DNA of 64,000 nt, from contig WBVU01000008.1 in the NCBI GenBank assembly GCA_009192285.1, positions 1,684,370 to 1,748,369 on the forward strand, written 5' to 3'. The notes under the pieces were generated by a model. The model was not told the origin of the DNA. It ran no database searches and saw nothing but the letters and a program-made list of their open reading frames with translations. Source of the DNA: Morchella semilibera. Taxonomy: Eukaryota; Ascomycota; Pezizomycetes; Pezizales; Morchellaceae. The position numbers were made by a program, and so were the translations under genes. Positions 3,826 to 63,080 of this stretch are shown here, in pieces; the first letter of the stretch is position 1; the number at the start of each line of letters is the position of its first letter.

Positions 3826-4809
3826 ATGGTATGTGGTTAGGGTTCTTAGCCAGTATTTCAAGGCGAAATTTTGCCATAGAGCGCACTATTGGGAACCCTG
3901 CCGTCAAGATGGGGGCTACATCAGCCTTAGAAACAGTACTCGGCTTACACCAGGCTAATGCTTCAAGAGGTAACCACAAACCGTTGTACACACATTGCCT
4001 CGGCCCGATCCTCTATACAGCTGCTTATCAATCATGGGTATCAATCATGGGTATGACCTTAATACAGATTCTTCATTCCAATTAGCGTCCCCTCTTCAAA
4101 TGGCATCCTTTCATAGTCATGGAAAGACAGTGTTAGTACTTCCATATACAGGTAACCTTATCAACCTCTAGGGCGGGCACTTCAACACCGCCCCTCAGGC
4201 TGCTTGTGCGGCGCCAGAGAGAGAGATTAACACTAGGGGGCATATGATCAGGGACAACCCATCAGCGCACAGGGAGCTCCTGGGTCTCCCTCTTAAACAC
4301 GGTGCAGACGCCAACTCAAGTGGTGGATATTACGGAACGCGTCTCTAGGCAGCTACAAATGCTGGCTATCCCGAAATGGTAGAAACACTACTTGCAAAGG
4401 GCGCTGTTTGCAACATCAGAGAGGGAAAGTTTATAACAGCTTTGCGTGCGGTAGTCACTGTCACCGAGTGCTGTTTCTACGAATGTAGTTAACATCATAT
4501 GAGGTGGATATACTCACAACCCTCATTCAAGATGGAGCCCATGTTAACACCGAGACTGATGGGCATGATACTGAAATTGAGTCCACCCTTCACTTATGCG
4601 GGCTGCCCCGCCGTAGTCTCGCGTGTGACCTGGCATGTAATGGAAGGGTGGCAGAGATGATTGAGATCCTCCTTGAGAACGGCGCCGAGGTTGACTATCG
4701 CGGTGACTCATGCCACAAAGAGTGTCAAGAGATGAACAATGAAGTCTATAGACCACTTGTTGGTCGCATCATGAAGGACTTGGTGGCCAGGCTACATAGA
4801 CGTGGGTAG
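3826..4809 (+). pseudogene. Decayed ankyrin-repeat gene
   Basis: Ankyrin-repeat remnants occur in order on the plus strand but in broken frames. Near 4088-4140 is LQMASFHSHGKTV. At about 4295-4430 is LLKHGADANSSGGYY, followed after a stop codon by AATNAGYPEMVETLLAKGA. At 4504-4809 is an open stretch with DILTTLIQDGAHVN and EMIEILLENGAEVDY. The helix-turn-helix spacing and the Gly-Ala-(Asp/Glu)-Val motif are diagnostic of ankyrin units. Stops and frame changes between units show that it is no longer one gene. A 14-base tandem duplication (TATCAATCATGGG) at about 4028-4055 lies within it. A hAT-type element is inserted 37 bases after the last open stretch. The parent protein may have been an NLR-like or plain ankyrin protein; the intact ankyrin gene at 21.7 kb is only a distant relative. 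Confidence 0.7.
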
Positions 4810-21684: not shown

Positions 21685-24267
21685 ATGTCCCTGGACACTG
21701 TCTTTCGAGTCTTGGGAGTGCCTAGCCTGACTACCATATCCAGGCTAGAAACTGCGTTCTGCGAGGAGTTTGGTGAAGAGGCTACAATCGACCCCAAGAA
21801 ATCAACACTATGCCCATCGTGTTTCGGCGACAATACCCAAGTAGCGCTGGTTCAGTTTACCAAGGAGCCACCGAAGCAGCTCAGCACGCTCAAAGCGGGC
21901 AATTCGTATGATATGGAACTGGATGACGGCGATATTAGTATTGACAAGGACTTCTATGGCCTGACACAACTGTATCCCACAAGTGGAGCTATAGTTGCAG
22001 AGTAAGTAGCCCTATGGGGGGGGGGGGGGCGTTTTGGTGCCGGTTCAACATGTATTTACCTACCATAATGTAGTGTGGTGGCAGTATGCGGGCTCAATGG
22101 CCATGCGTACGGATCCTGGCGGAGCAGGGGAAATCTACGCCGAATGTGGCTACGACATTTTTTCTCCCAGGATGTCCCAAGTTACAGAACCATGATTTAC
22201 GGATATAACTCGAGCCTCGCAGCGCATGCCATTCATACAACTCAGGATTACTCGAAGGGGTTTTTAGAGGAGTTGATGAAGGCTAGGCAGACCGAGCAAG
22301 TAGGTTTTTTGTCTATCACCATTTGCTAATATGTGTTTGACTGTTTGGTTTTGATGCGGAGTTTGTAGGAGAAAAAAAGACCTTTAGTATTTATTGGACA
22401 CAGCTTTGGAGGTGTAATCATCGTTCAGGTATGTATCTTGTCCCTGGACATGCCATTACCTCTTCAGAGACAATCATCTATATGTGTGTATATTAATCTT
22501 TTATACTCATGTCACCATACAGTCACTCGTACGTGCCAAAGAAAGCGACACGGGCAGCGACCAAAGCATGATCTTTCCCGCAACTCATGCCACAATTTTC
22601 TTCGGTACGCCTCACCGTGGCCTCGTGGTCGATGACATTCGCGCCTCACTCGAGGAAGGATCATCTCGCCATGCGCTTCTCGATTCTATCGAGAAAGGGG
22701 CAGCCCTTCTTGCATCAGAGCTTTCCCGTTTCATTGATTGTTGTAACGACATCAAGATTGTCAACTTTTATGAGACTCATCAGACAAGGAAGCTTGTACG
22801 GGTATGTATATCATATAGTAAACCTTTACCCCAAGAAGCCCTGGTTGAATTTTTGTGAAGGGATCCGACGGTAAATTATCGAGGTCTGGCGAGTTTTTCA
22901 CTGCCGTAGAGAGCGAGTCTTCGGTTCTAGAGCTTCCGCGGAAAATCGCAGAGTCATTACCAGTTGATGGTGACCACTCGGATATGGTCAAGTTCTCGGG
23001 CAGAAATACATCAAAGTCGTATACCAGTGTTCTCAAGCACCTGAGAAATGTTGCGACGACGGCCGGAGGTACCTAGCCAGCAATAGCCTTTTCTTTCTTT
23101 GGTCGTTATTGTATTAGCTAGCTAAGAGAATCCCGCAATAAAAAAGTTAGCAATCATTTTCACACGGCATATGCTGCTGTCCTTGGCCAAGATGCGGAAG
23201 CTTTAAGGCATATTCTTAAGAGTCGACCCGTGGCAGTGAATGAGAGACAGAAAGGAGGGACCACGACGCTCCTTCATCTCGCTATTGAAAATGGTGGAAA
23301 TATAGAGGTCATTACCACATTACTAGATTATCAGGTCTCCCCCGATTCCGTCAATCTCAATGGAATAACCCCGCTGTACCTGGCGGCTGGTAAAGGCTAC
23401 ACGGAGGTCGTTGAGATTCTAGCTAAGAACGGCGCTGATGTAGATACCGTCTGTGAAAAGATGACGCCACTCCACACCGCCGTCCTCGGCGGTCATAAGG
23501 ACGTTGTTTCAAAGTTATGTTCTTGTAACGCAGACATTGAAGCAGTTGTAAAGGACGAAGAGGGATACGCAGCTTTGCACCTTGCAGCTGGAGGTGGAAA
23601 TATCGAAATTGCCAGTGTGTTGCTGTCCAGAGGAGCGGAGATAGAAGCAAGAGGGAAAGACAAAGACACGCCTCTTCATTGTGCGGCCTGGAGTGGCCAT
23701 GTGGAAATGATCAAGCTGCTTATAGAGCACTCCGCGGACGTTATGGCAATCGGAGTAAACGGTGATACTGCGCTTCATTTTGCGACTTCCTCGGGCCAAG
23801 TAGCGGCGATGGAGACACTTATAAGAAGAGGGGCGGACATTCACGCAAAAAACATTCACGGCCATACAGTTCTCCATATCGCTGCCGGTGCTGGCATCAT
23901 AGAAGCGGTTGGGCTTCTTTTGCTCCGCGAAGCCGATTTGAAGTCGGTTGATAATCTCCAAAATACCCCATTGCACTTTGCTGCGCAAAATGGCTACGAC
24001 CAGGTTGTTGACCTCCTCCTGAAGCGAGACAGTAGTACCGTAAATGCGGTGGATAGTAACGGTTACACCGCTTTACACACAGCAGCCTGGGCTGGTCATT
24101 TGAGTGTAGTGGAGGTTCTGCTACGGTATAATGCAGACATGCAGGAGAGAGAATGGGTTCAGCAGTACCAGCCGCATCAACTTGCGCGTCTTGGCCATCA
24201 TAAGGAGGTAGAGACGTTCCTATTAAGGCAGAAGTCGAAACCCTCATCACCCGTGGAAAAAAGATGA
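21685..24267 (+). CDS. Alpha/beta-hydrolase with ankyrin repeats, NLR-like but without NACHT
   Basis: Six exons fit in phase: 21685-22001, 22074-22299, 22369-22428, 22523-22801, 22861-23068 and 23147-24267, giving 736 residues. The N-terminal third is a serine hydrolase of the SERAC1/PGAP1-like group that fungi often place in front of NACHT or repeat domains. Visible marks are VVAVCGLNGHAYGSW (about 106-120), the nucleophile elbow GHSFGG with Ser193, FFGTPHRG (about 227-234) and a likely catalytic His333 in PVDGDHSDMVKF. From residue about 366 ten to eleven ankyrin units follow (for example TPLHCAAWSGHVEMIKLL). In relatives the first motif often reads HGLNG or SGLDG; Cys here is unusual. Intron 1 contains a 12-G run. 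The expected NACHT NTPase between hydrolase and ankyrins is absent; exon 5 leads almost directly into the repeats. Probable role: cytosolic sensor or effector in incompatibility-type immunity, by family analogy only. Confidence 0.88.
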
Positions 24268-31128: not shown

Positions 31129-32683
31129 CTAGTTAAAGGTATTCCGAGTCCCGGCTTTGGCTACTTGAGTGATGTCCCTCATGAGCTCTACTTCGTCGAT
31201 GATAGTCGATGGTTTTGAGCCCACTACTAGTGATCTGAGGGTCTCCTTGCACACGATATAAACCTTCTGTTGAGGAAGGCCAACTTGTTGCAAAAGAGAT
31301 TGGAAGTTCCTACGTGTATCAGAGACATACCTACCACAGGCTTCATTGTGCCGATTCCTTTTTCTCTCCTCACTGTTACCTTCGTCGTCGCTATCGCCGT
31401 CATCGTCCTCCATGAGATTTCTGATTTGTTGGTCCGATTTTGATCGTACAACGAACGACGGAATACCGAAGCGTTTGCAATGAAAAAGCAGCTCCACGTC
31501 TGTCTTGGTAAAGCGGTCGCCGGCCACAACCATAATGACATCAAATATGTACAGGCCTTGGTCGTTGAAATATTGCCAGTCGCGGATATTGACAGTGCCG
31601 GCTCCAGGTACGTCGTACCAGGCTAACCACTGTCTGGAAGGATTTGGGTCGACATATCGTTTGATTTCTGTAGTTGTTTCGCTGGTGCCGGTCCTGGCGG
31701 TGCCCATTTTGTTGGAATTTGAATTTTTGAGACCACGAAGCGCATTGATCATTGACGATTTTCCACATCCAGAACAGCCGGTGATAGCGACATGCAAGTA
31801 GCCTTCCTGATACCCAAGCTTCTGTCTCGTCAACCGAATTTCCTCGCCGGTAGGATATTTGACGGGCGGAATCCCTTCTTGCAGGTTTCTTTCGGCTTCT
31901 TCTCTTAAGAAGACCTCTTGCTCGACCCTTTGTCTTGCTTCCTCCTCGGTTTTTCTCGCCAGTTCCTCCATCTTCTTTCTTTCCTCTTCCATTCTTATCT
32001 GCTCCTGGAGCGCGCGGAGCTCCTCTTGAACTTTGTGAGCCTCCTCCAGCTTCCTCAACTCCTCTTCTGCCCTTCTCATCTCCTCTTCTTTCTCTGCTTC
32101 AGCTCTTCTCATCTCTCTCTCATGGTGCTCAGCCTGCAACCTCTCTTTTTCTTGCTGTGCTCTCAGCATCTCCTCTTGATGCTTCTCTGCCATAACCCTT
32201 TCCCTCTCCGCTTGTTCCCTTTGCTTTCTCATTTCCTCTTGGTATACTTTCAACTCATTGGCATGTTTCTCGGCCAGTACTCTTTCCTTTTCTTTCAATA
32301 TCCTTTCCCTCTCCTCCTGCGCTCTCTGCATATCCTGTTGGTGCTGCAACTCTCGAGCTCTATCCCTCTCCGCTTGCGCCCTCCGCTCCTCTTCCATCTG
32401 TTTATCTCGGAGTGCTTGTGCCCTCCGCTCCTGTTCTAACCGTTCGTTTTGCTCTCTTATTAGGCGCTTCTCATTCTCACGGTGTTCGGACGCAAGTCTT
32501 TCCCTTTCTGCCTCAAGCCGGCGCCTCTCATTTTCAGCTTCCTCAGCATGCCTTTGAGCCCTCGCCATATTCTCGTGAGCCTCTCGAAGTGCATGCTCAT
32601 GCTGTGCATATATAGTTAGCGGAGCAGATTCGGCAAGTGTAAGGTTTAGGATGGGTCGTTATTACAGATTGACCACCACCCAT
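31129..32683 (-). CDS. IRG-type (p47-like) GTPase with long coiled coil and probable N-myristoylation
   Basis: Exon 1 is 18 bases (32683-32666) encoding MGGGQS. A 64-base intron (32665-32602, GTAATA...CTAAC...CACAG) precedes exon 2 (32601-31129); total 496 residues. MGGGQS fits the MGxxxS myristoylation pattern, and mammalian IRG GTPases are also N-myristoylated. Residues about 7-265 form a highly charged Glu/Arg/Lys coiled coil. The G domain follows: P-loop GCSGCGKSS from Gly281, ETTTEIKRYVDP as switch region, DVPGAG (from about Asp336) and RSKSD as the specificity motif (about 395-399). These motifs, the RxxxT/ETT pattern and the G-domain spacing match immunity-related GTPases rather than septins or dynamins. 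An acidic insert (EDDDGDSDDEG) follows the RSKSD motif. The likely role is membrane-linked, self-assembling GTPase activity. The fungal function is not established. Confidence 0.85.
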
Positions 32684-35078: not shown

Positions 35079-35958
35079 TAATAGAAGATGTAATATGAAA
35101 CCAACTTCTGATAGCCGACTCTTGCGGCAGCCATCAACCAGCTGACCGTTTCCTCAACATTGTCATCGTCGCGACTCGAAACCCACGACAACCACCAGGG
35201 AATATCAGACCTTAAAAATGACTATATATTAAACCCGCTTTGTTGTTGTAACTATCGGCCGCCGTTATGTAGGTCGGCCTCAAACTTGGTTCCAACAACG
35301 CCGGGAAAATAGGTTTGCAGAGAAGGGTATGATATATTTGGAGGCCTAAAGTGGCTAGGATCAGGTGACAGAAATAAGGCGCGCACATTTACCACAACAT
35401 TATACGTCAGTCTCTATATCACCCTCCACATATTTGTAGACCTTGTTGACATGAAGAACAGCTGCGGCTGAAATATCTCCTATGTTAACGTGACTGATCC
35501 AGGCCCACAAAACTCCCTTTCAAATATGAGGCTGTAATGTCTCTGACACCAAGTAGAGTATTCCAAGAACGCTAGAACATGTTCTAGCCCTCAGTTTGGG
35601 TCGTGTTATGCTCGATGAGCTTGTGAACGTTTCCCTCCTCCCCCTCTACTTCTCCTTATTCCTCCCCGCCGGGGTCCATCTCAAACCTTAGAAGAAACAG
35701 CATTTGAGGAACTAGAGCGCTCCCGGATAACTTAGGTGCAGTCATCCACCCCCGGCCATCCCTGGCCACCCCTCCTCCGCGCCGGAGCTCACTCTCGCTT
35801 GGTACTTATATTACAGGACCAAGCAAAGTTCTGGCGGCAACATCAACATCGCCTTCACGCCCCTGACACCTAGCTCCCCCGCAGGCGGACACAGCACTTC
35901 AGAGCTATACCCAAACCTCCCACCGCAATACCACCCTCTACGCACCACAGATTCCCCA
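35079..35958. promoter_or_regulatory. Upstream region of the zinc-finger/ART-like gene, with palindrome
   Basis: A perfect 18-base palindrome GCTAGAACATGTTCTAGC lies at 35571-35588, about 370 bases before the start codon. It could bind a dimeric regulator, but no known fungal site is recognised. The rest is pyrimidine-rich near 35,640-35,780. Confidence 0.4.
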
Positions 35959-38900
35959 ATGAGCCGCCCCACCCCAACGCCGACAAAGTCCCGACACCGC
36001 CCTCGAGCCCGTAAAGGGCCTCGAGAGAGCCCAGTTCGTGTTGTCGAATCCTCTTCTCCACCTCCACATTGTCGAGTTTCTAGAACACCACACACGCGCC
36101 CCGAGCCCGTAGGGGCCCCGGCCACCAGTTCTACTATTGGCAGCGAGGGAGGCCTTTGGGAATGCCGCGTTTGCGACCGGAGTATGGGTGTCATGCTAAA
36201 AGGCGCCCATATTGAGAGCTATATGCACCGCAATAACCAAAGCCTCCAGATACAGACAGTGGGGGGAAGGAAGGGGAACATCCGGAATGATGGTACACTA
36301 AAACAGGAGCGGGAGGATGGGCAAGGAACGCTTGAAGAGGAGGGGAGGCAGATGCAGGGCCTGAGGGAGCAAAACCAGGAACACAGGCTCGAAGCGCTGC
36401 AGAAGCAAGAGAAACAGGGGCCCAAACAGCAGATGCTCGGGGAGTTTCAGACCCAAGAGAAACAAGAAGAGGAGCGGAGGAGAGTTAAAGGGCCCCGGAT
36501 GGAGACCGCGCAAACCCAGGAGCAGCATCCTACAAAAGCGAAGTATCAGGCACCGGCGAAGGACGTTACTCCTTGGGAATGCAGCATCTGCCAAATCACG
36601 ATGAAGACCCATCTCATGAGCTATCACATTGCCAGCGTCCAACATCATCGGAATGAGACACGTAGGAGAGAAGACGAGCTGCAGAAACAGGAGGAGCGGC
36701 GGATACAAGAGATTTATAAGCAGGGGGAGGAGATGAGAAGGGATGAACAAATTCAACGACTCGAGGAAGAGAAACGGCGAAAGCAGGAAGAGTTAGAAAA
36801 ACTAGAAGAATCTCAGCGGCTTGAGGAGCATGCAAGGCAAGAAAGGCAGCGGAAGGAGGAGGAGCTGAGAAGGGGAGATATGCAGAAGGAAGAGGAGAAG
36901 CTTAAAAATGGAGGGGACCTACAAAAGCAAGAGGCTGGGTGGTGGAAGGACGAACAACCACAGATTATATATTCGGCACATACGGGGAGATCCAAGGCTC
37001 TAGAGTCGCTGTCATGGCCGTCCGGACCAGAATACCCGTACTCGGCTCAAGAACAGCAGCACATAAATAGTCTTTCCGTTGCAGTTAATCAGTCCGGGGC
37101 CAATGATGGCTACACAGGCGGCGCCACTGGCCAAATGATAAACTTAACAAACCACGAAATCATACCTATTACCGCCAACGACAGCATAAAGGAGCAACGT
37201 GCGCCGCCAAAAGGGACCTGGCTTTGTGAGACCTGTAAGCGGGAGATGATGATAACTTCCAGGAACAGCCACCTGGCAGGCAGAAGTCATAGGGAAAAAC
37301 AGTTGAGGTTGGACTCCATAAATCGGGAAAAGGAAGACATAAAAAAGGAAGAAATAAAAAAGGAAGAAATAAAAAAGGAAACGCAACGCATCGCGGAAAC
37401 CAATAGGGCTGAAGAGGAAGTGTGGACGGAAAAAAGGAGATTGGATGAAGAGGGAGAGCGCCACAAGCAGCAAGAAACGCGCAAAGAGGAGAAACGTATC
37501 GCGGTTCGGGTAGAGACACAGACGTTTAAAGACTGGATTGCGGAACAGAAACGGATTGTATTAGAGAAACGGATTGGGAAACAGAAACGTCTTCCGGAAG
37601 AGACATGCCTTGCGGGAGAGGAACGCCTTGAGGAAGTAATAAGGATTGAGTTAGACAGACAGATCACGGAACAGAAACGGATTACGGAGAAGCGTATTAA
37701 AGAGGAGAGAAGATTAGAGGAGGAGAAACGGACCGCCGAGAGACGTACTGCTGAGGAGAGAAGATTAGAGGAAGAGAAACGGACCGCCGAGCGACGTATT
37801 GCTGAAGAGAAGCGTATTGCTGAGGAGAGACGTATCGTGGAGGAGAGACGGATTGCGGAGGAGAGACGTATTGCTGAGGAGAGACTTATTGCTGAGGAGA
37901 GACGTATTGCTGAGGAGAGACGTATTACTGAGGAGAGACGTATTGCTGAGGAGAGACGTATTGCTGAGGAGGAGAGACGTATTGCTGAGGAGAGACGTAT
38001 TGCTGAGGAGAGACGTATTGCTGAGGAGAGACGTATTGCTGAGGAGAGACGTATTGCTGAGGAGGAGAGACGTACTGCGGAAGGGATTGCAGAAGAGAAC
38101 CGCAGGGGAGGAGACAGACGTATTATAGAGGAGCTAAGACGAATTGCGGAAGAGGAGGATATTGAGAAACTGGGAGAAAAGCATTTACGGGGACCATCCT
38201 ACAATCCCGATAAGCAAGCGCAGTATCAGCACATCGGGGCAGCGGAGAATCAGTGCACGATTCCAGATTTTGCGGGTTCTGGTGATCCCGGGGACGAACA
38301 CCAACACAAACTGCGTCATCCATCATCTTCGACCATCGATCAGCAAAAGCACAGACAGACAGAAAATATGACAGAGTCCACAAGAAAGCCTACAGCGGGG
38401 CCTTTGCAGCTAAAGGAGGAGGGGCCTTGTAAGGTAGGTACTATCGTGGTACAATCTCCTCTGATAGAGCTCGCTACCGCGAGTTCGCTGGCAACAAAGG
38501 GTGATCTACGGGGTGAGGGTCAGCCGCAGGGAGGAACCCTAGAGTACTCGATGTCGCAGGTGGAGCAAGAGGGGGTCGGCCTGTCACCACCCAAAGTACT
38601 GGAAGTAAGTAAGCCAAGCAACAATGTACAGCGCCAGCATCCTACAAACCAGCGTGAGGAGAAGGGTTTTAGGGCAAAGATGTTTCAGTATCTCTTATCC
38701 CAAGGAGAACTACAACAGCAACCAGTTGAAGAGAATACGGTGAAGGTATGGACGATGGAAGAAATGTACCGGGAACATATGATGGGGCAGTATATGGTGC
38801 AGGAACAACCCCTTTTTGTCCAAGGTCCTGCAAGGTAAGAGTGACAGTAATCTCCTAATCTCGTACCATCACATGTTAACATCCCCCAGTTTACTCCCTG

Positions 38901-39403
38901 CGCCCGTCTCATGCGTGACGGATTTACCACCAATATTATATCGGGTCTATGATCATACCTCTGTCAGTATATACACCTCGGTCGGGTTCACAGCCGGAAA
39001 CCCGTACATGCCAAACAGGCCACCACAGTTTAAAGCTATGGTCAAACGTCACGCCAACTGGAGTAGTAGATCGGGGACACCATTCATCTCTGTCACAACT
39101 AGCCCGGATGCTGTGGGCTGGCATGTGGCGAAGAAAAGGGCTGAGGGACAAGACGGCAACGTTATGGTAGCTTTGATAGATACTGCTGCTCTGCTTGGCA
39201 TATGTGGAACTCGTATCTGGAAGATGCACGATGCAATGGATCACTTCGGCCTTGAGCCATATAAGTGTCAGCGCCGGGCATATGATAATGAGTATATCTG
39301 CGCCCTTCAAATACCGGCCAGAGCTATATTTGCCTGTTGCCAACCAGACTATTTCATGGATATCGCATTAATATTCCTGAAAAATCTCGATTTAAAGGGA
39401 TAA
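35959..39403 (+). CDS. Zinc-finger / ERRIAEE coiled-coil protein with DUF7587/ADP-ribosyltransferase-like C-terminus
   Basis: Exons 35959-38834 and 38890-39403 join in phase across a 55-base intron (GTAAGA...TTAAC...CCCAG), giving 1129 residues. Three U1/matrin-type C2H2 fingers lie at about 67-90 (CRVCDRSMGVMLKGAHIESY), 206-230 (CSICQITMKTHLMSYHIASV) and 421-445 (CETCKREMMITSRNSHLAGR). Long Glu/Arg/Lys coiled coils follow fingers two and three. The second contains about 16 near-identical six-residue ERRIAE units (residues about 611-709). The final 170 residues have LPPILYRVYDH, an HANWSSRSGTPFISVTT block, NVMVALIDT and a NEYICALQIPARAI end. This pattern recalls the fungal DUF7587 domain, and its Arg, Ser/Thr-rich and Glu positions recall ADP-ribosyltransferases; catalysis is an inference. 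Without the splice the last domain would be missed. Confidence 0.82.
37790..38090 (+). repeat. Coding minisatellite, 18-base unit (ERRIAE)
   Basis: About 16 tandem copies of GAGAGACGTATTGCTGAG and close variants run through this stretch without breaking the frame. Two places carry an extra GAG codon. The unit makes a continuous charged helix. Near-identical DNA, not only protein, suggests recent expansion and probable length variation between strains. Confidence 0.9.
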
Positions 39404-40784: not shown

Positions 40785-40952
40785 TTCCTTAGCCTGTCAG
40801 TAAAATGCTGACCCCCCAAGAAGAAGCAAATTTTGTATGGCTTTACTAACGTATAACAGATCCCATTGTCTCCCTTATCAAATAATAGATCTTTCATACT
40901 AATTTAATTCCTCTATTATAGGGGTCAGCATTGCATATTGACAGACTAAGGA
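40785..40952. repeat. TA-flanked MITE, TCCCTTAAGCTGTC family copy 2
   Basis: The ends TTCCTTAGCCTGTCAGTAAA and the complement TCCTTAGTCTGTCAATATGC lead into a shared ATGCTGACCCC, and TA borders are at 40783-84 and 40953-54. The terminal pattern matches copy 1, 113 bases away, but the interiors differ. Confidence 0.75.
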
Positions 40953-44497: not shown

Positions 44498-47400
44498 ATG
44501 GGAAAAGGAAAGAGAAATCAGAATCGCTCAAATAAAAAGGCCAAACCTGCAAATACGCCAGCTACAGCGAACAGTACCACTACCAATATCGATATCAGCA
44601 ACTCTAGTTCAGCAGCCACGTCCAGTGAACAGAGAAGCGCCTCGACCCCTGGGACTAAGCCGGTCGGGACCGATCAAGAAGGCCTAAATCAAAAGCCGCA
44701 TAAAAGAACTCGGAAGTGTCACTTTGTTCCACAGTGGATATTAAGGAACTTTGCGCGACAGGAGGGGTGAGAAATGACCTATCTACATTTGTTGATCAGT
44801 GTGTCTATATTAACCTCTTCTATATAGACCCCAGGATCCCAAAAACCCTTCAGTCTACTATTTCGATATCCAGAAAAAAGAACTCACACGTTCCTTGACC
44901 AGGGATGTCTATTACAAGGATTACCTATTTTCAGCCCACCAGAACGAGGAAAAGCTCAGTCAACTCGAGAGCAGAGCAAGCAGGTCTTTCCAAGAGATAA
45001 TGGCGACGATAAATAATCGCGATAAAAAATCCCGGAAACGGATCGGTCCCAAAGGCAATCTTCGCGACGCAGAAGCGAAAGTATTTGGAGGATCTACGGA
45101 AGTTCTTGTTTGTCATGTATTATCACCAGGTCTCTGTAGGCCACACATTCTATGACGAAGATCACCCCGAGAACGACAGGATGCAATCATGGATCCAATC
45201 TTACCGTGAAAGATATAAGCTCAGTACTTCCCCGCAGGATACATGGCTCCATGTACTTAGTCACTACCTCCGAACGCCGCATAAGGAACTCATGGAGCAA
45301 GGGGGGAAGGTCGAGAGATTCATGACTAATGAGATTTTTAGCAGACTACGACCCGATATTTCTTCATCAGGGTCAAACATGATGCGTGATGCTTTGGCCG
45401 TATACAAATCTGTGAAAGCAGACCCCGAATTGGAGGAATGGAGGTCGCTGCCGTACTATGACAATATGCAAATGTTCCTAGTTATTTGGGAAGCCGCCCC
45501 CGATGAAGAATTTCTAATGTCAGATAACTCGTTCGGACTTTACGAAGGGCGAAACGAGGAAGTAGGCCCACTTCACAGGATCTATATCGTATCGCCAAAG
45601 ATCGCTTTAGTTCTTTGCCATCCAGGTCTTAAAGAAACCAGCCATCTGCCCGGATTCGTAAATTACGCCAACCCCTTCCAGCTGAGCACCGAACAGTGCA
45701 GCATGTCTATGCTCTTAAATGCGCCTCATCCTGCAGCGAACGTCAAGTACAAGCACAACAAACCACTCCCCTCATCGATGATCACCCTTTACGGGAATGC
45801 CGGTGCTGCACACCCCCACCCTGATGATGAGTTTGAGCTCCGGGTCTCAATACTCTCATCTAAAGACACGCATACAATCAATGCAATCATTCTCGGAAAT
45901 GCCAGGGATGACGGTAAGATTACATTTGGCTCGAAAGGTGCCGCTCTTCGCACCTTGAGGGAGTTTGAGACGAATCTCGAGTTTAATCGAAAGTGTAAAC
46001 CAAAGTTTGCACCATTGGTACAACAATTATCGGAGGAACTTGGTGCTCGATCAGATACCCACCCTATCCCACATCAGCCTGACCTCTCGGACACAATCCC
46101 GCTTCTTCAACTTCCTCCGCTGTCAGAGGAGCCCGGTACCTTTTGGGAAACATCACTTATGGTATATCATGTTTTGCACACGGGACAGGACCCCCAATGC
46201 ACTAGTTATAGATTGTGGGAACAGCTGCATACCGACAGCCTCGTAATAAACGCCAACACGAGTTCGAACGTCCATAAAGCGAGGCTAGTGTCTAAGATGG
46301 ATGACAGGTTTGCCTATGTCCTGTTCAAGTTCTGCTCCGGGGTCCTGGCGCGGCAGTTTGGGGAATCCCTCAATCCCCAACCATACTTGGAGCAACTAAT
46401 AATACGATTTTTGGATCATCTCCTCAAAAACAATAGACCAATCTTCGATATGATTGAAAAGAGCGCCGTTGAAATTCTTCGCAGATCCTGCCACCAGCCA
46501 ACCCTTGCATTGACGGCAAGGGTCAAGATAGAAATCAACGTAAGCTGGCCCCTTACCTACATGTAGCTCGACCCTACTGGCAGACTAATATATTTTTAGC
46601 CAGGGGATGATGACAGTATACCAGTCCCTACAGTTCCCCCAGCTCCCCCTAAAAATTCAGAATCTACGGCAAACCGAGCAGACGGTCTTGAGGCGCCTGC
46701 GGCAGCATATCTAGAGTGGTCATTTGGTCGAACGGAACACATTCGCCGCAACATGTCCCCGGAGGTGTTTGTCCCACCTTATCCATACACGGTAGGCTCT
46801 CCACAAGAGCTTCCGGATCTAGGTGGGGAATCACTTGCGGATACAGTCCCAAACAACCAGGACCCCGAACCAGCCGAGAACCCTGAGCATGGGTCCAATA
46901 CTAAAGATTCACTGCCGACCCAACAGGTTGACCATGATACGACTAATAACTTGTCTCCTGAAGAGGAAATAGATGAAGAAGAGGGCTCGACGCAGTGCCC
47001 GGATGTTGACCCAGGAGCCAGCTTCAACACGGAGCTTCAGGAAAATGTGGAACAGGAGTTTAACAGGTCAAGAACTTGGAAAGATCTTTGCTTAGATTCC
47101 AGCATAGGCGTGTGTGAAGAGCTTGGTGTCATACGTGAAGAGCTTGAACTCATACTCGTAAAGGCTTTGGCACTCACTGTTGTGTTGCCAGCGATATATT
47201 CTCTTTACGTGTTCGCCACGACAATTGTTCAAGCTGTGCAGCTAGCTTACCACTACCAACCTTCATCACTTAAACCTGGCGCACTGCCCGCTACCCAAAC
47301 CTCGAAACCCAGGAGAAGTACCCATTCACCAGACAGCTATTCAGCAACTACCATCATCATTTCTTACATAGTAATCTATCCCGCCACGATAATAGTGGTC

Positions 47401-60012: not shown

Positions 60013-62481
60013 TTAAGCCCCAGATTTCCTGCTCTCTGCCGCCCGATGACTGGCGGTACCCTGATGCATTTCCCTCCACGCACTGTGGGTTTTTACATTG
60101 CATACCCTGCATCTCCATATCCCACTCGCATGCGCTTCCCTTTCTCGCTCCGAGATATTCTTCAGACAAATCTCACACCAATTCATATCCGGCTCCAACT
60201 TCACATCCACCTTCACGTCTCCGCCAACCTTCGTAAGCACCATTTCGCTAACCACGTTTTTAGTGATCTGCGGCGTATAGGCTAGCTCGTTCTTTTTATG
60301 TTTTTTGCCAGCTACATGTATCTGAAGATTATTAATCGCTAAGACCATGTTGCAAGGCTTGCAGTGAAATTGGCCCTGTTCCATCGGGGGAGTTGGGGGA
60401 GTCTTGATGTTGCCATGCGCACCTGGCCCCTCGACGGTAGCTTTGGTCGTATTGGCAATGTGTTTTTTCCCACTCAAATGAGTTTCTAGGTCCTTAGGAC
60501 CTAGTGTCATCCCACATGGAGTGCACCTGATCTTCCCCCCGCCCTCCGCTACGGTCTGTGGAGCACCTGCCTCCCTACTGTTCTTGGCAACCTGTTCCGC
60601 CTCTCTCACAGCCTCATTTGCCTTGTGCCTAAGGCCACTCAGGTGGCTCGGCCGGGCACCCATAACCATTGTCATATCACATATGTCACAGCGGAATGTT
60701 TCTTTCTCAACACCGGATACCATCTTGTTGGATGGACCTGGCTGGGCCGCCGCCTGCAACGGAGAATTGTTTGCTCGACTGCTTATCGGAACCATGACCG
60801 GGGGGTTAGGCTTCGAAACAGATTGTTGATTTGAATGGGCAGCATCCAAAGCTCTATGCCCGACCGTTGCTACATGAGCCTCTCGACTATCGGAATTGAC
60901 AATAATATGGCATAGCGAACAGTAGAACCTCTTTGTAGGAGAAAGAAGAGCGCGGGGAGCAATAGGAGGAACAGTGCCATTGAATTTTGCTTGAATCGCA
61001 CTTGCGTTGCTGGGTAATATTGCTTGGGCGGCTTTAGCTTTTCGAGCTGCCTGCTCTGCCTCGATAGTTTGTTGTTTTGTCCTATGCTTGATTCCAGCCA
61101 GGTGGCTTCCCCTGCTATCCATTTGCATCGTTATCCCGCAAAGCTCACAGTGGAAAAATGCAGTCACCTTTGGGGGGGCTGCAGTCTGTAGCTCCCCAGC
61201 TTGCGGCATGGAGGTTTTAACTATTCCACCTTTAGCCTCCACGCATCGGATGTGCTCTCTGCTAGCTAGATGGTCACTACGGGTACTGAAATGGAATTCA
61301 TCTTCGCAGTCTTTGCACTCGAAGGTTTGGTCGGAGTGGAATTTCCGCTCGCTCATAGGATACTCCGTATCACATAGATCACAGTAGAATGTTTCCACTT
61401 GGATATGCACAGGTGTTTGGTAAGTCTGGGAGAGGAGGGGTGGTTTTGGTTGGGTGTCGGTGACCTTCGGTATATAGTTCTGGTAAGAGGGCCCAGGATG
61501 TGCTAGTTTCTCCTGCCCCGGGTTGCTTACTGAAGCCTTCAGTGCCCCAGCTTTTTTTGGCTCCTCCAGTCCCCATGGGTCTTCAGCGAGTGGCCGGTAT
61601 ACTTTGTTATCTTGCGCTTCCCAGTCTTCGTCGTCGTCGCCGTCTTCCGGCTGATAGATGGTGCCCGTACCCAGGCTTTCACTACCCCCTCGGATGTCAT
61701 GAGGCACCCAATCGTCCTGAGCTTCTCCCTCTTCGTCGGGCCTATACACAGCGCTCTCCTCCAAGTATCGTTTACCCCCTTGACCCTTCCCTAGCCCCCA
61801 ATCTTCCTCTTCCATTCCTCCTAGGACCTCCTCGCCATCTTGAGGCTTGTACACTGCTCTCTGCTCAACAAACTCATCAGATGGTGGGATGTACTGGGGC
61901 TCCCCACTTTCCTTGAGCTTCATGACGTGCTTCTTCCCAGCGACATGTTCCGCCGTGTAGAAGATGTTGACTTCTTCATCGCACAGCTCACACTGCCAGG
62001 TCGGCATTCCCCCCCCTCCCCCTGCCTTCTTCCTTTGCCTCCGTGGACGTGGTGATTGCTTCGCTTTCGGAGGGTGCTCGCTCGCGATATGTTCGCTACG
62101 GGAGAAAACACTCATCCGCATCTCACAAATGTCGCAAGTCCACACCATGGTTGAAGGGTCCTGGCCAGGAATCTCCGGCCAGTCGTTAGGGATATTGATC
62201 GCCGAGTCGTCTACTTGCCCCTCCAACAACCGCCCTTGTTCCTGGCGATGTTTTGTGGCTGCAAGCCTTTTCTTTCCTTGGCCCATCTCCATGGCTGCAA
62301 TCCTGTCCCTTTCATCTTGCTCCTCTTTCGCGGTGGAGCCCCCGCCAGCAACCCAGACTTTCTCGAAGAGCTCCATGTGGTTTTGGGTATAGACGTCGCT
62401 TTGGCGTTCCATTTCGTTACCGTAGATTTCGCGATAGAGGTCAACAGCGTGTTCAACGTAGGATGTGGTTGCGGAAGACAT
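60013..62481 (-). CDS. Protein with an array of U1/matrin-type C2H2 zinc fingers
   Basis: A single exon encodes 822 residues from MSSATTSYVEHAVDLYREIY. Fingers begin at about residue 114 and run to the C-terminus: CDICEMRMSVFSRSEHIASE, CELCDEEVNIFYTAEHVAGK, CELCGITMQMDSRGSHLAGI, CSLCHIIVNSDSREAHVATV, CDICDMTMVMGARPSHLSGL, CTPCGMTLGPKDLETHLSGK and CKPCNMVLAINNLQIHVAGK. In addition there are two compound units (CDLC...FECKDCEDEFHFSTRSDH and WCEICLKNISERERE...CRVC). The C-x2-C-x11-H-x5-H spacing with SHLAGxxH is typical of U1-type and JAZ-like fingers, which bind double-stranded RNA or RNA-protein complexes. Acidic linkers with repeated YRPDEEG/YQPEDGDDDED-like segments lie between fingers two and three. 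The fingers match those of the gene at 36 kb. The role is probably RNA binding; targets are unknown. Confidence 0.85.
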   Translation of the reverse strand: MSSATTSYVEHAVDLYREIYGNEMERQSDVYTQNHMELFEKVWVAGGGSTAKEEQDERDRIAAMEMGQGKKRLAATKHRQEQGRLLEGQVDDSAINIPNDWPEIPGQDPSTMVWTCDICEMRMSVFSRSEHIASEHPPKAKQSPRPRRQRKKAGGGGGMPTWQCELCDEEVNIFYTAEHVAGKKHVMKLKESGEPQYIPPSDEFVEQRAVYKPQDGEEVLGGMEEEDWGLGKGQGGKRYLEESAVYRPDEEGEAQDDWVPHDIRGGSESLGTGTIYQPEDGDDDEDWEAQDNKVYRPLAEDPWGLEEPKKAGALKASVSNPGQEKLAHPGPSYQNYIPKVTDTQPKPPLLSQTYQTPVHIQVETFYCDLCDTEYPMSERKFHSDQTFECKDCEDEFHFSTRSDHLASREHIRCVEAKGGIVKTSMPQAGELQTAAPPKVTAFFHCELCGITMQMDSRGSHLAGIKHRTKQQTIEAEQAARKAKAAQAILPSNASAIQAKFNGTVPPIAPRALLSPTKRFYCSLCHIIVNSDSREAHVATVGHRALDAAHSNQQSVSKPNPPVMVPISSRANNSPLQAAAQPGPSNKMVSGVEKETFRCDICDMTMVMGARPSHLSGLRHKANEAVREAEQVAKNSREAGAPQTVAEGGGKIRCTPCGMTLGPKDLETHLSGKKHIANTTKATVEGPGAHGNIKTPPTPPMEQGQFHCKPCNMVLAINNLQIHVAGKKHKKNELAYTPQITKNVVSEMVLTKVGGDVKVDVKLEPDMNWCEICLKNISEREREAHASGIWRCRVCNVKTHSAWREMHQGTASHRAAESRKSGA

Positions 62482-63080
62482 GGTGGATGGATGATGTGGG
62501 GAGCTTAGGAGGTGGTGGTGGGGCTTAGGTGTGAATCTGAGAGCCCCCTTTGCGGATTTGGAGTTGTGAAAACTAGGGTTACTGGAAGTAGGGAAAGATT
62601 GAGGGGGAGAGGGCTACATAAACCACGTTAAGGCCTTCATCAGAAGCCGAGTTACGTAGATAGTTGGACGCCTTAAACCAATAGTGCGGATCACAAGATG
62701 TCGCCAAGATCTCGATTTGGTCATTAACAAAATAGTAGCCCGGACTAATTAGGCAACTATTAACCCCTATTTTGAAGTTGCTATTTATATCTATTTGTTT
62801 GTTCTGCTTTCTTGTGTGGGTTAGGTTTGCAGAAACTGTTTTGTCGCGCCAAGACACAGGTATAATATCGCGATCAACTCGCTTATTGGTTTCCGACCTC
62901 ATACTCGGTACTGTTTCCACTTTTGTTCCTATTTTTGGTGTTGTTTAACTCATCACTCAGGTACCAATCAAGTAACTATAAGGAAAGGACTCTGGAGAAA
63001 GCAACGACAGGAATGGGGAGGGTAATGCCTGATCTTGGCACCAATGGCTAAGGTTGCGCTTGACCCCAATATTACCAAAG
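62482..63080. other. Upstream region of the zinc-finger array gene
   Basis: A pyrimidine/purine-biased leader lies immediately upstream of the start. A 113-codon minus-strand frame at 62579-62920 has no recognisable motif. Confidence 0.35.

Follow-up and report, generated by a model that had tools for sequence, protein, structure and literature searches.

The locus at positions 35959-39403 of the Morchella semilibera DNA analysed here raises the question of whether zinc fingers and a C-terminal domain that may be an ADP-ribosyltransferase (ART) belong to one fungal protein, and what such a protein would do. The window, by which we mean the whole 64,000-nucleotide stretch, is C22:1684370-1748369 in a genome of 56.8 Mb and 23 contigs; the 49 matches to Zn_clus in this genome, a family not known outside fungi, agree with a fungal origin. 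The locus encodes three zinc fingers, long charged helices and a DUF7587 domain, and a paralogue on contig C1 (C1:3994254-3996689) has a similar layout, an intron of the same phase and a nonsynonymous divergence (dN) from the window copy well below the synonymous one (dS). We favour, tentatively and at somewhat less than an even chance, the reading that this is a single intron-containing gene for an intracellular, perhaps nuclear, enzyme in which fingers, a rod-like helix and an ART-like domain would be directed at nucleic acid or a ribonucleoprotein (RNP).

The coding region starts at 35959, where the open frame 35731-38838 has its first ATG, and arithmetic on the separately read exons gives a predicted product of 1129 codons (958 full, one split, and 170). 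An earlier interpretation made from the letters of the DNA (the sequence-only reading) had given the same coordinates, the same 55-base intron and the same length, and the reading of frame, ATG and splice sites together with the codon count bears them out. DUF7587 is matched twice in the genome, each time behind an exon that encodes a finger and a glutamate/arginine-rich (E/R) helix. In the C1 paralogue a single finger, the counterpart of finger 2, is followed by the E/R helix, a conserved block just before the intron, a 54-base intron and DUF7587. These shared elements support both the joining of the exons and the earlier claim of a single spliced gene; because the intron phase is the same in the two copies, it is likely that the finger/helix exon and the DUF7587 exon form one gene and that the fusion is real. 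Tandem QMLQG-type repeats stand just before the intron in the C1 paralogue (about 4240-4480 of locus L003) and are absent from the window copy.

The two copies share 65% identity over exon 2, with dN 0.22 and dS 1.65 by NG86 and 0.22 and 1.59 by YN00, a ratio to be taken as rough because dS is near saturation. The block around finger 2 (44 codons) is 59% identical, with NG86 dN 0.29 and dS 3.8; YN00 returned no value for this block or for the pre-intron block (32 codons). For exon 1 as aligned over 571 codons, its repeats among them, dN and dS are 0.48 and 2.22 by NG86, and 0.57 and 1.03 by YN00. Downstream of the gene, window positions 40788-40951 match DNA close to the C1 copy, in opposite orientation (166 columns, 79.5% identity), perhaps as a repeat element.

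In both copies the C-terminal domain belongs clearly to PF24494 (76.9 bits in C1), as the sequence-only reading had it. Pfam describes DUF7587 as a domain of unknown function, and no paper in the literature library searched mentions 'DUF7587' or 'PF24494'. The argument for an ART-like character comes from three short motifs, LYR, FISVTT and D-N-E-Y (D-D-E-Y in C1), which follow each other in the order given for the R-S-E clade in the part of PMC7955679 that describes it. The R, S, T and E residues are identical in the two copies. With T4 ModA, ModB and six phage relatives as a yardstick, the domain shares with R-S-E ARTs the succession of LYR, S-x-T and x-x-E and, after these, an [IV]-P-x-x-x-I stretch. 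It differs from them in the distance from R to S, which is 49 residues here and 26 in ModB, in the Asp at the -2 position of motif III, and in that the profile comparison is not significant. A first version of the ordered pattern matched the window and C1 copies, 3 of 20,000 shuffled domains and none of 345 segments from open reading frames (ORFs); it matched none of the eight Mod rows because its spacing had been taken from the window. A widened pattern matches both copies and seven of the eight Mod rows, the background being 18 hits among 20,000 shuffled window domains, 84 among as many shuffled C1 domains, and 2 among the 345 ORF segments. For the pattern and block scans, the background consisted of ORF segments lacking LYRVYD and lying outside loci L003, L031 and L038. 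An ART-like fold is probable in our estimate, which draws mainly on the order of the motifs and on the general look of ART domains; that DUF7587 is an ADP-ribosyltransferase is plausible but unproven.

The three fingers follow the pattern C-x2-C-x11-H-x5-H, which is found on average 0.0001 times per shuffled protein (20,000 shuffles, of which two had at least one occurrence and none had three). They were scored with a profile built solely from the nine fingers of a neighbouring frame, 60013-62613, and all three exceed the best domain found with this profile in 1000 shuffled copies (4.6 bits). No zf-U1 match was obtained for the protein in Pfam up to E = 1, which places it outside zf-U1 by the Pfam cut-off, and its best Pfam finger matches, all below their cut-offs, include Zf_2nd_IFT121 at 14.9 bits. 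One finger of the neighbouring frame does reach zf-U1 (31.1 bits, cut-off 22), and all three fingers of the locus have the C2H2 ligands and are homologous to the fingers of that neighbour. Like U1-type and zf-met C2H2 fingers (PF06220 and kin), they have C-x2-C and H-x5-H and mostly an aromatic residue two positions before the first Cys; they differ in the 11 residues between Cys and His and in that zf-U1 is matched by the neighbour, not by this protein. Of the three U1-type fingers that had been claimed, the fingers themselves stand, and the U1 link runs by way of the neighbour. RNA binding may be supposed from the type of finger.

Two long charged coiled coils had also been proposed. Long charged helices are indeed supported, and the coiled-coil assignment is doubtful overall. 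Favourable i,i+3 and i,i+4 charge pairs outnumber unfavourable ones 37:1 in residues 601-660 and 36:0 in residues 641-700, with no Pro or Gly in either segment; by this count made on the sequence, the stretch has the charge pairing, free of helix breakers, of an E/R-K rod. Residues 601-740 have a strong six-residue period (0.57-0.87) and a weak period of 3.5 (0.02-0.27), which disfavours a coiled coil for this part. Some heptad signal is present in residues 561-620 (0.43 at period 3.5), and the first helix (residues 241-340) is mixed. On these counts the longest charged stretch resembles a single alpha-helix more than a coiled coil.

Table 1. Features of the finger-helix-DUF7587 locus and of its neighbourhood in the window
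Feature	Positions	Strand	Details
Exon 1	35959..38834	+	958 codons + 2 bases; three fingers, charged helices, conserved pre-intron block
Finger 1	36163..36228	+	Residues 69-90; C-x2-C-x11-H-x5-H; 9.6 bits; Cys pair absent in C1 paralogue
Finger 2	36580..36645	+	Residues 208-229; 17.4 bits (17.0 in C1); conserved in C1
First charged helix	36679..36978	+	About residues 241-340; charge-pair counts 35:8 and 24:4 per 60 residues
Finger 3	37225..37290	+	Residues 423-444; 23.2 bits; not found in C1 paralogue by alignment
Second charged helix	37639..38178	+	About residues 561-740; E/R-rich, six-residue period over 601-740
18-base tandem repeat	37789..38064	+	15.2 copies; codes RRIAEE-type units; encodes part of helix
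Conserved 32-residue block before intron	38671..38766	+	Residues 905-936; 66% identity to C1; NG86 dN 0.23, dS 1.11
Intron	38835..38889	+	55 bases, GTAAGA...CCCCCAG, phase 2; donor at 38835 (GTAAGA), acceptor AG ends at 38889
Exon 2	38890..39403	+	Encodes DUF7587
DUF7587 domain (PF24494)	38924..39337	+	80.7 bits, cut-off 27; profile positions 2-140 of 146
Arg of LYR	38942..38944	+	Candidate ART motif I; conserved in both copies; putative role
Ser of FISVTT	39089..39091	+	Candidate motif II; conserved in both copies; putative role
Glu of DNEY (DDEY in C1)	39290..39292	+	Candidate catalytic Glu; conserved in both copies; putative role
Open frame with IRG-like GTPase domain (PF05049)	31129..32658	-	77.7 bits; divergent, upstream; long charged N-terminal part
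Multi-finger open frame	60013..62613	-	Same finger type, nine fingers, one zf-U1 match; 20.6 kb downstream

Taken together, these elements suggest how the protein might work. The U1/zf-met-like C2H2 fingers would tether it to nucleic acid or an RNP, the long E/R single alpha-helix would serve as a stiff spacer, and the C-terminal DUF7587, probably an ART-like fold of the R-S-E kind, would modify a nearby target using nicotinamide adenine dinucleotide (NAD). The N terminus is basic, with eight Arg or Lys among the first 25 residues, and a hydropathy count finds no hydrophobic stretch there, which favours an intracellular, perhaps nuclear, location.

Several results weigh against this picture. 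The ordered pattern was written after viewing the window and was then widened, and its rarity is therefore overstated. A profile-profile comparison of the domain with the phage R-S-E enzymes ModA and ModB, run with hhalign, gave a probability of 0.4% over six aligned columns, from a query alignment of two rows (Neff 1.27). A gapless scan with three blocks was not significant for the window domain, whose score was equalled or exceeded by 825 of 2000 shuffled sequences and by 148 of the 345 ORF segments. The first PDB sequence search returned one unrelated match, at E 0.56, to a zinc-finger protein, and the second returned none; Pfam up to E 10 gave DUF7587 only for the window domain. In the C1 copy, which has a single clear finger, the first in-frame Met comes after the lost finger 1, and the three-finger front is therefore not conserved. 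Finger 3 weakly resembles the ubiquitin-binding zf_UBZ (14.0 bits, cut-off 25.6), so that the fingers need not bind nucleic acid. Finally, exon 2 contains one 19-residue stretch with a mean hydropathy of 1.73, which is near the level where a membrane segment is suspected.

For the C1 domain, the gapless block scan found 36 of the same 2000 window-domain shuffles and 5 of the 345 ORF segments equal or better. The C1 domain also has weak, unrelated matches in Pfam (FRP at E 0.15 and VQ at E 0.21). For the window domain, no ART occurs among the PDB and Pfam matches, and NCBIfam and PHROGs gave nothing. T4 ModB itself has no Pfam ART match, and the Pfam test is therefore weak; with the two-row query alignment in addition, the profile tests have low power. 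The ordered R, S and E-like positions speak for the earlier claim of an ART-like C terminus, and the profile probability, the block scan of the window domain and the PDB searches speak against it.

The strongest alternative, which we consider possible though less likely than not, gives DUF7587 a binding or scaffolding role, or takes it for an ART fold that is no longer catalytic, in a protein acting as a structural adaptor for nucleic acid, RNP or ubiquitin, the helix bridging its partners. It would account for the lack of profile and PDB support for an ART, for a motif III that reads D-x-E and not Q/E-x-E, and for the weak zf_UBZ match of finger 3; changed triads are also known from several human ART-like domains, according to the part of PMC7955679 that deals with them. 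It fits less well with the retention of R, S, T and E in two copies that are 65% identical, and with the rarity of the ordered pattern in shuffles, even with the reservation that the pattern was written after the fact.

The neighbourhood of the gene bears on a second alternative. A frame with an IRG-like GTPase domain (PF05049) lies upstream of both copies, divergent from the gene in the window and in the same direction as the C1 copy; the PF05049 and DUF7587 matches are 7124 bases apart in the window and 4775 bases apart in C1. With 16 PF05049 hits in 56.8 Mb, the chance of such an adjacency is about 0.004 per locus if the hits are independent. The two adjoining GTPases do not form a sister pair in a weakly supported tree built from 13 loci (midpoint root, with 2 of 10 inner branches starred), and their position in different parts of this tree disfavours a recent segmental duplication as the origin of the adjacency. 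An ancient block duplication is a possible source of both neighbourhoods, and since they may be remnants of one such event, the two adjacencies need not be independent. A working partnership of GTPase and DUF7587 protein may exist.

One could suppose from this arrangement an executioner of an immune-like or allorecognition response, in which the ART-like end would be a toxin domain turned against self and would work with the adjoining IRG-like GTPase. The closeness of PF05049 to both DUF7587 matches, the failure of the two GTPases to group as sisters and the position of the family near contig ends all agree with this proposal: 7 of the 16 PF05049 hits lie less than 100 kb from a contig end, more than expected (binomial P about 1e-4), or 5 of 13 when the near-identical C10 and C22 repeats are set aside. 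We nevertheless consider it unlikely. The adjacencies are perhaps remnants of one ancient duplication, adjacency does not equal interaction, and no finger above 8 bits was found at 11 of the 13 PF05049 loci examined (10 kb each). HET has only two hits in the genome, and no PADLOC model matches the domain. As for fungal NLR or HET proteins, neither exon has a Pfam match to HET, NACHT or NB-ARC up to E = 1, which by this criterion places the protein outside them.

That the locus holds two genes is quite improbable. In this reading the TAA at 38836-38838 would close a finger/helix gene, and the ATG at 38873, within the putative intron, would open a short DUF7587 gene. The window does have an in-frame ATG ahead of the domain, but the exon 2 frame of C1 has no Met before it, which speaks against a separate DUF7587 gene, and the pre-intron block, the splice sites and the phase are kept there all the same. 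The TAA at the donor carries little weight because a phase-2 intron that starts with GTAA always creates one at this place. Some ARTs act as secreted effectors on other organisms, and an effector role had been proposed in the sequence-only reading, but the basic N terminus without a hydrophobic stretch, the fingers and the length of 1129 residues make secretion hardly probable at all.

Other features of the surroundings can be noted here. The C1 copy has a weaker relative of the multi-finger frame about 7 kb upstream, an arrangement that an ancient block duplication could likewise explain, and members of the family related to window 60013-62613 (minus strand) also occur on C4, C5, C17, C21/C22 and C1, several of them near contig starts (C4 at 13-15 and 44 kb, C17 at 111 kb, C21/C22 at 113 kb). 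In the contig pairs C9/C10, C12/C13 and C21/C22, some family hits stand at near-equal offsets, as if haplotypes or contig ends had been assembled twice. On the plus strand of the window, an ankyrin-repeat frame of 381 residues occupies 23122-24267 (Ank_2, 272 bits), and a DUF4238 frame occupies 45013-46566 (36.2 bits), followed by an open frame of 338 residues with no Pfam match up to E = 1.

As for known layouts, animal PARPs with CCCH fingers (PARP12, PARP13/ZAP and TIPARP) have RNA-binding zinc fingers ahead of a C-terminal ART domain, their parts being the CCCH fingers, a WWE domain and a PARP-type catalytic domain. By analogy, and with no implication of membership, they may serve as the closest working model for the preferred finger-rod-ART-like enzyme, from which they are distinguished by its C2H2 U1-like fingers, its long E/R helix and DUF7587. 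The passages of PMC8195603 on mollusc proteins describe KH and RRM domains with a C-terminal ART, likewise RNA-binding domains joined to an ART, in that case with other RNA-binding domains, macro domains and a PARP-14-like ART. The layout had been put forward as one without a described counterpart; as a kind of protein this is too strong, given the animal PARPs, which have other fingers and another ART clade.

Among fungi, the sequence searched for relatives was this genome. Elsewhere, no relatives were confirmed among 4 and 50 pattern matches in viral contigs or among 65 pattern matches in one scan of prokaryote genomes, and none were found in plasmids and phages. PMC9815663 contains none of ADP-ribos, PARP, zinc, GTPase or IIGP as whole words, and a whole-word search for ADP-ribos misses longer forms.

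A bolder version of the preferred reading would make the protein an R-S-E-type ART with U1-like fingers and a helical spacer, acting on RNA or RNP in cell-autonomous defence or RNA control and linked both genomically and functionally with the IRG-like GTPase. It would then be a fungal counterpart, of different composition, to the antiviral finger-PARPs; we regard it as distinctly unlikely. If DUF7587 is an ADP-ribosyltransferase, a fungal protein family would gain a testable chemistry, and the finger front would point to nucleic acid or an RNP as the site of its action. The GTPase neighbours offer a concrete candidate partner.

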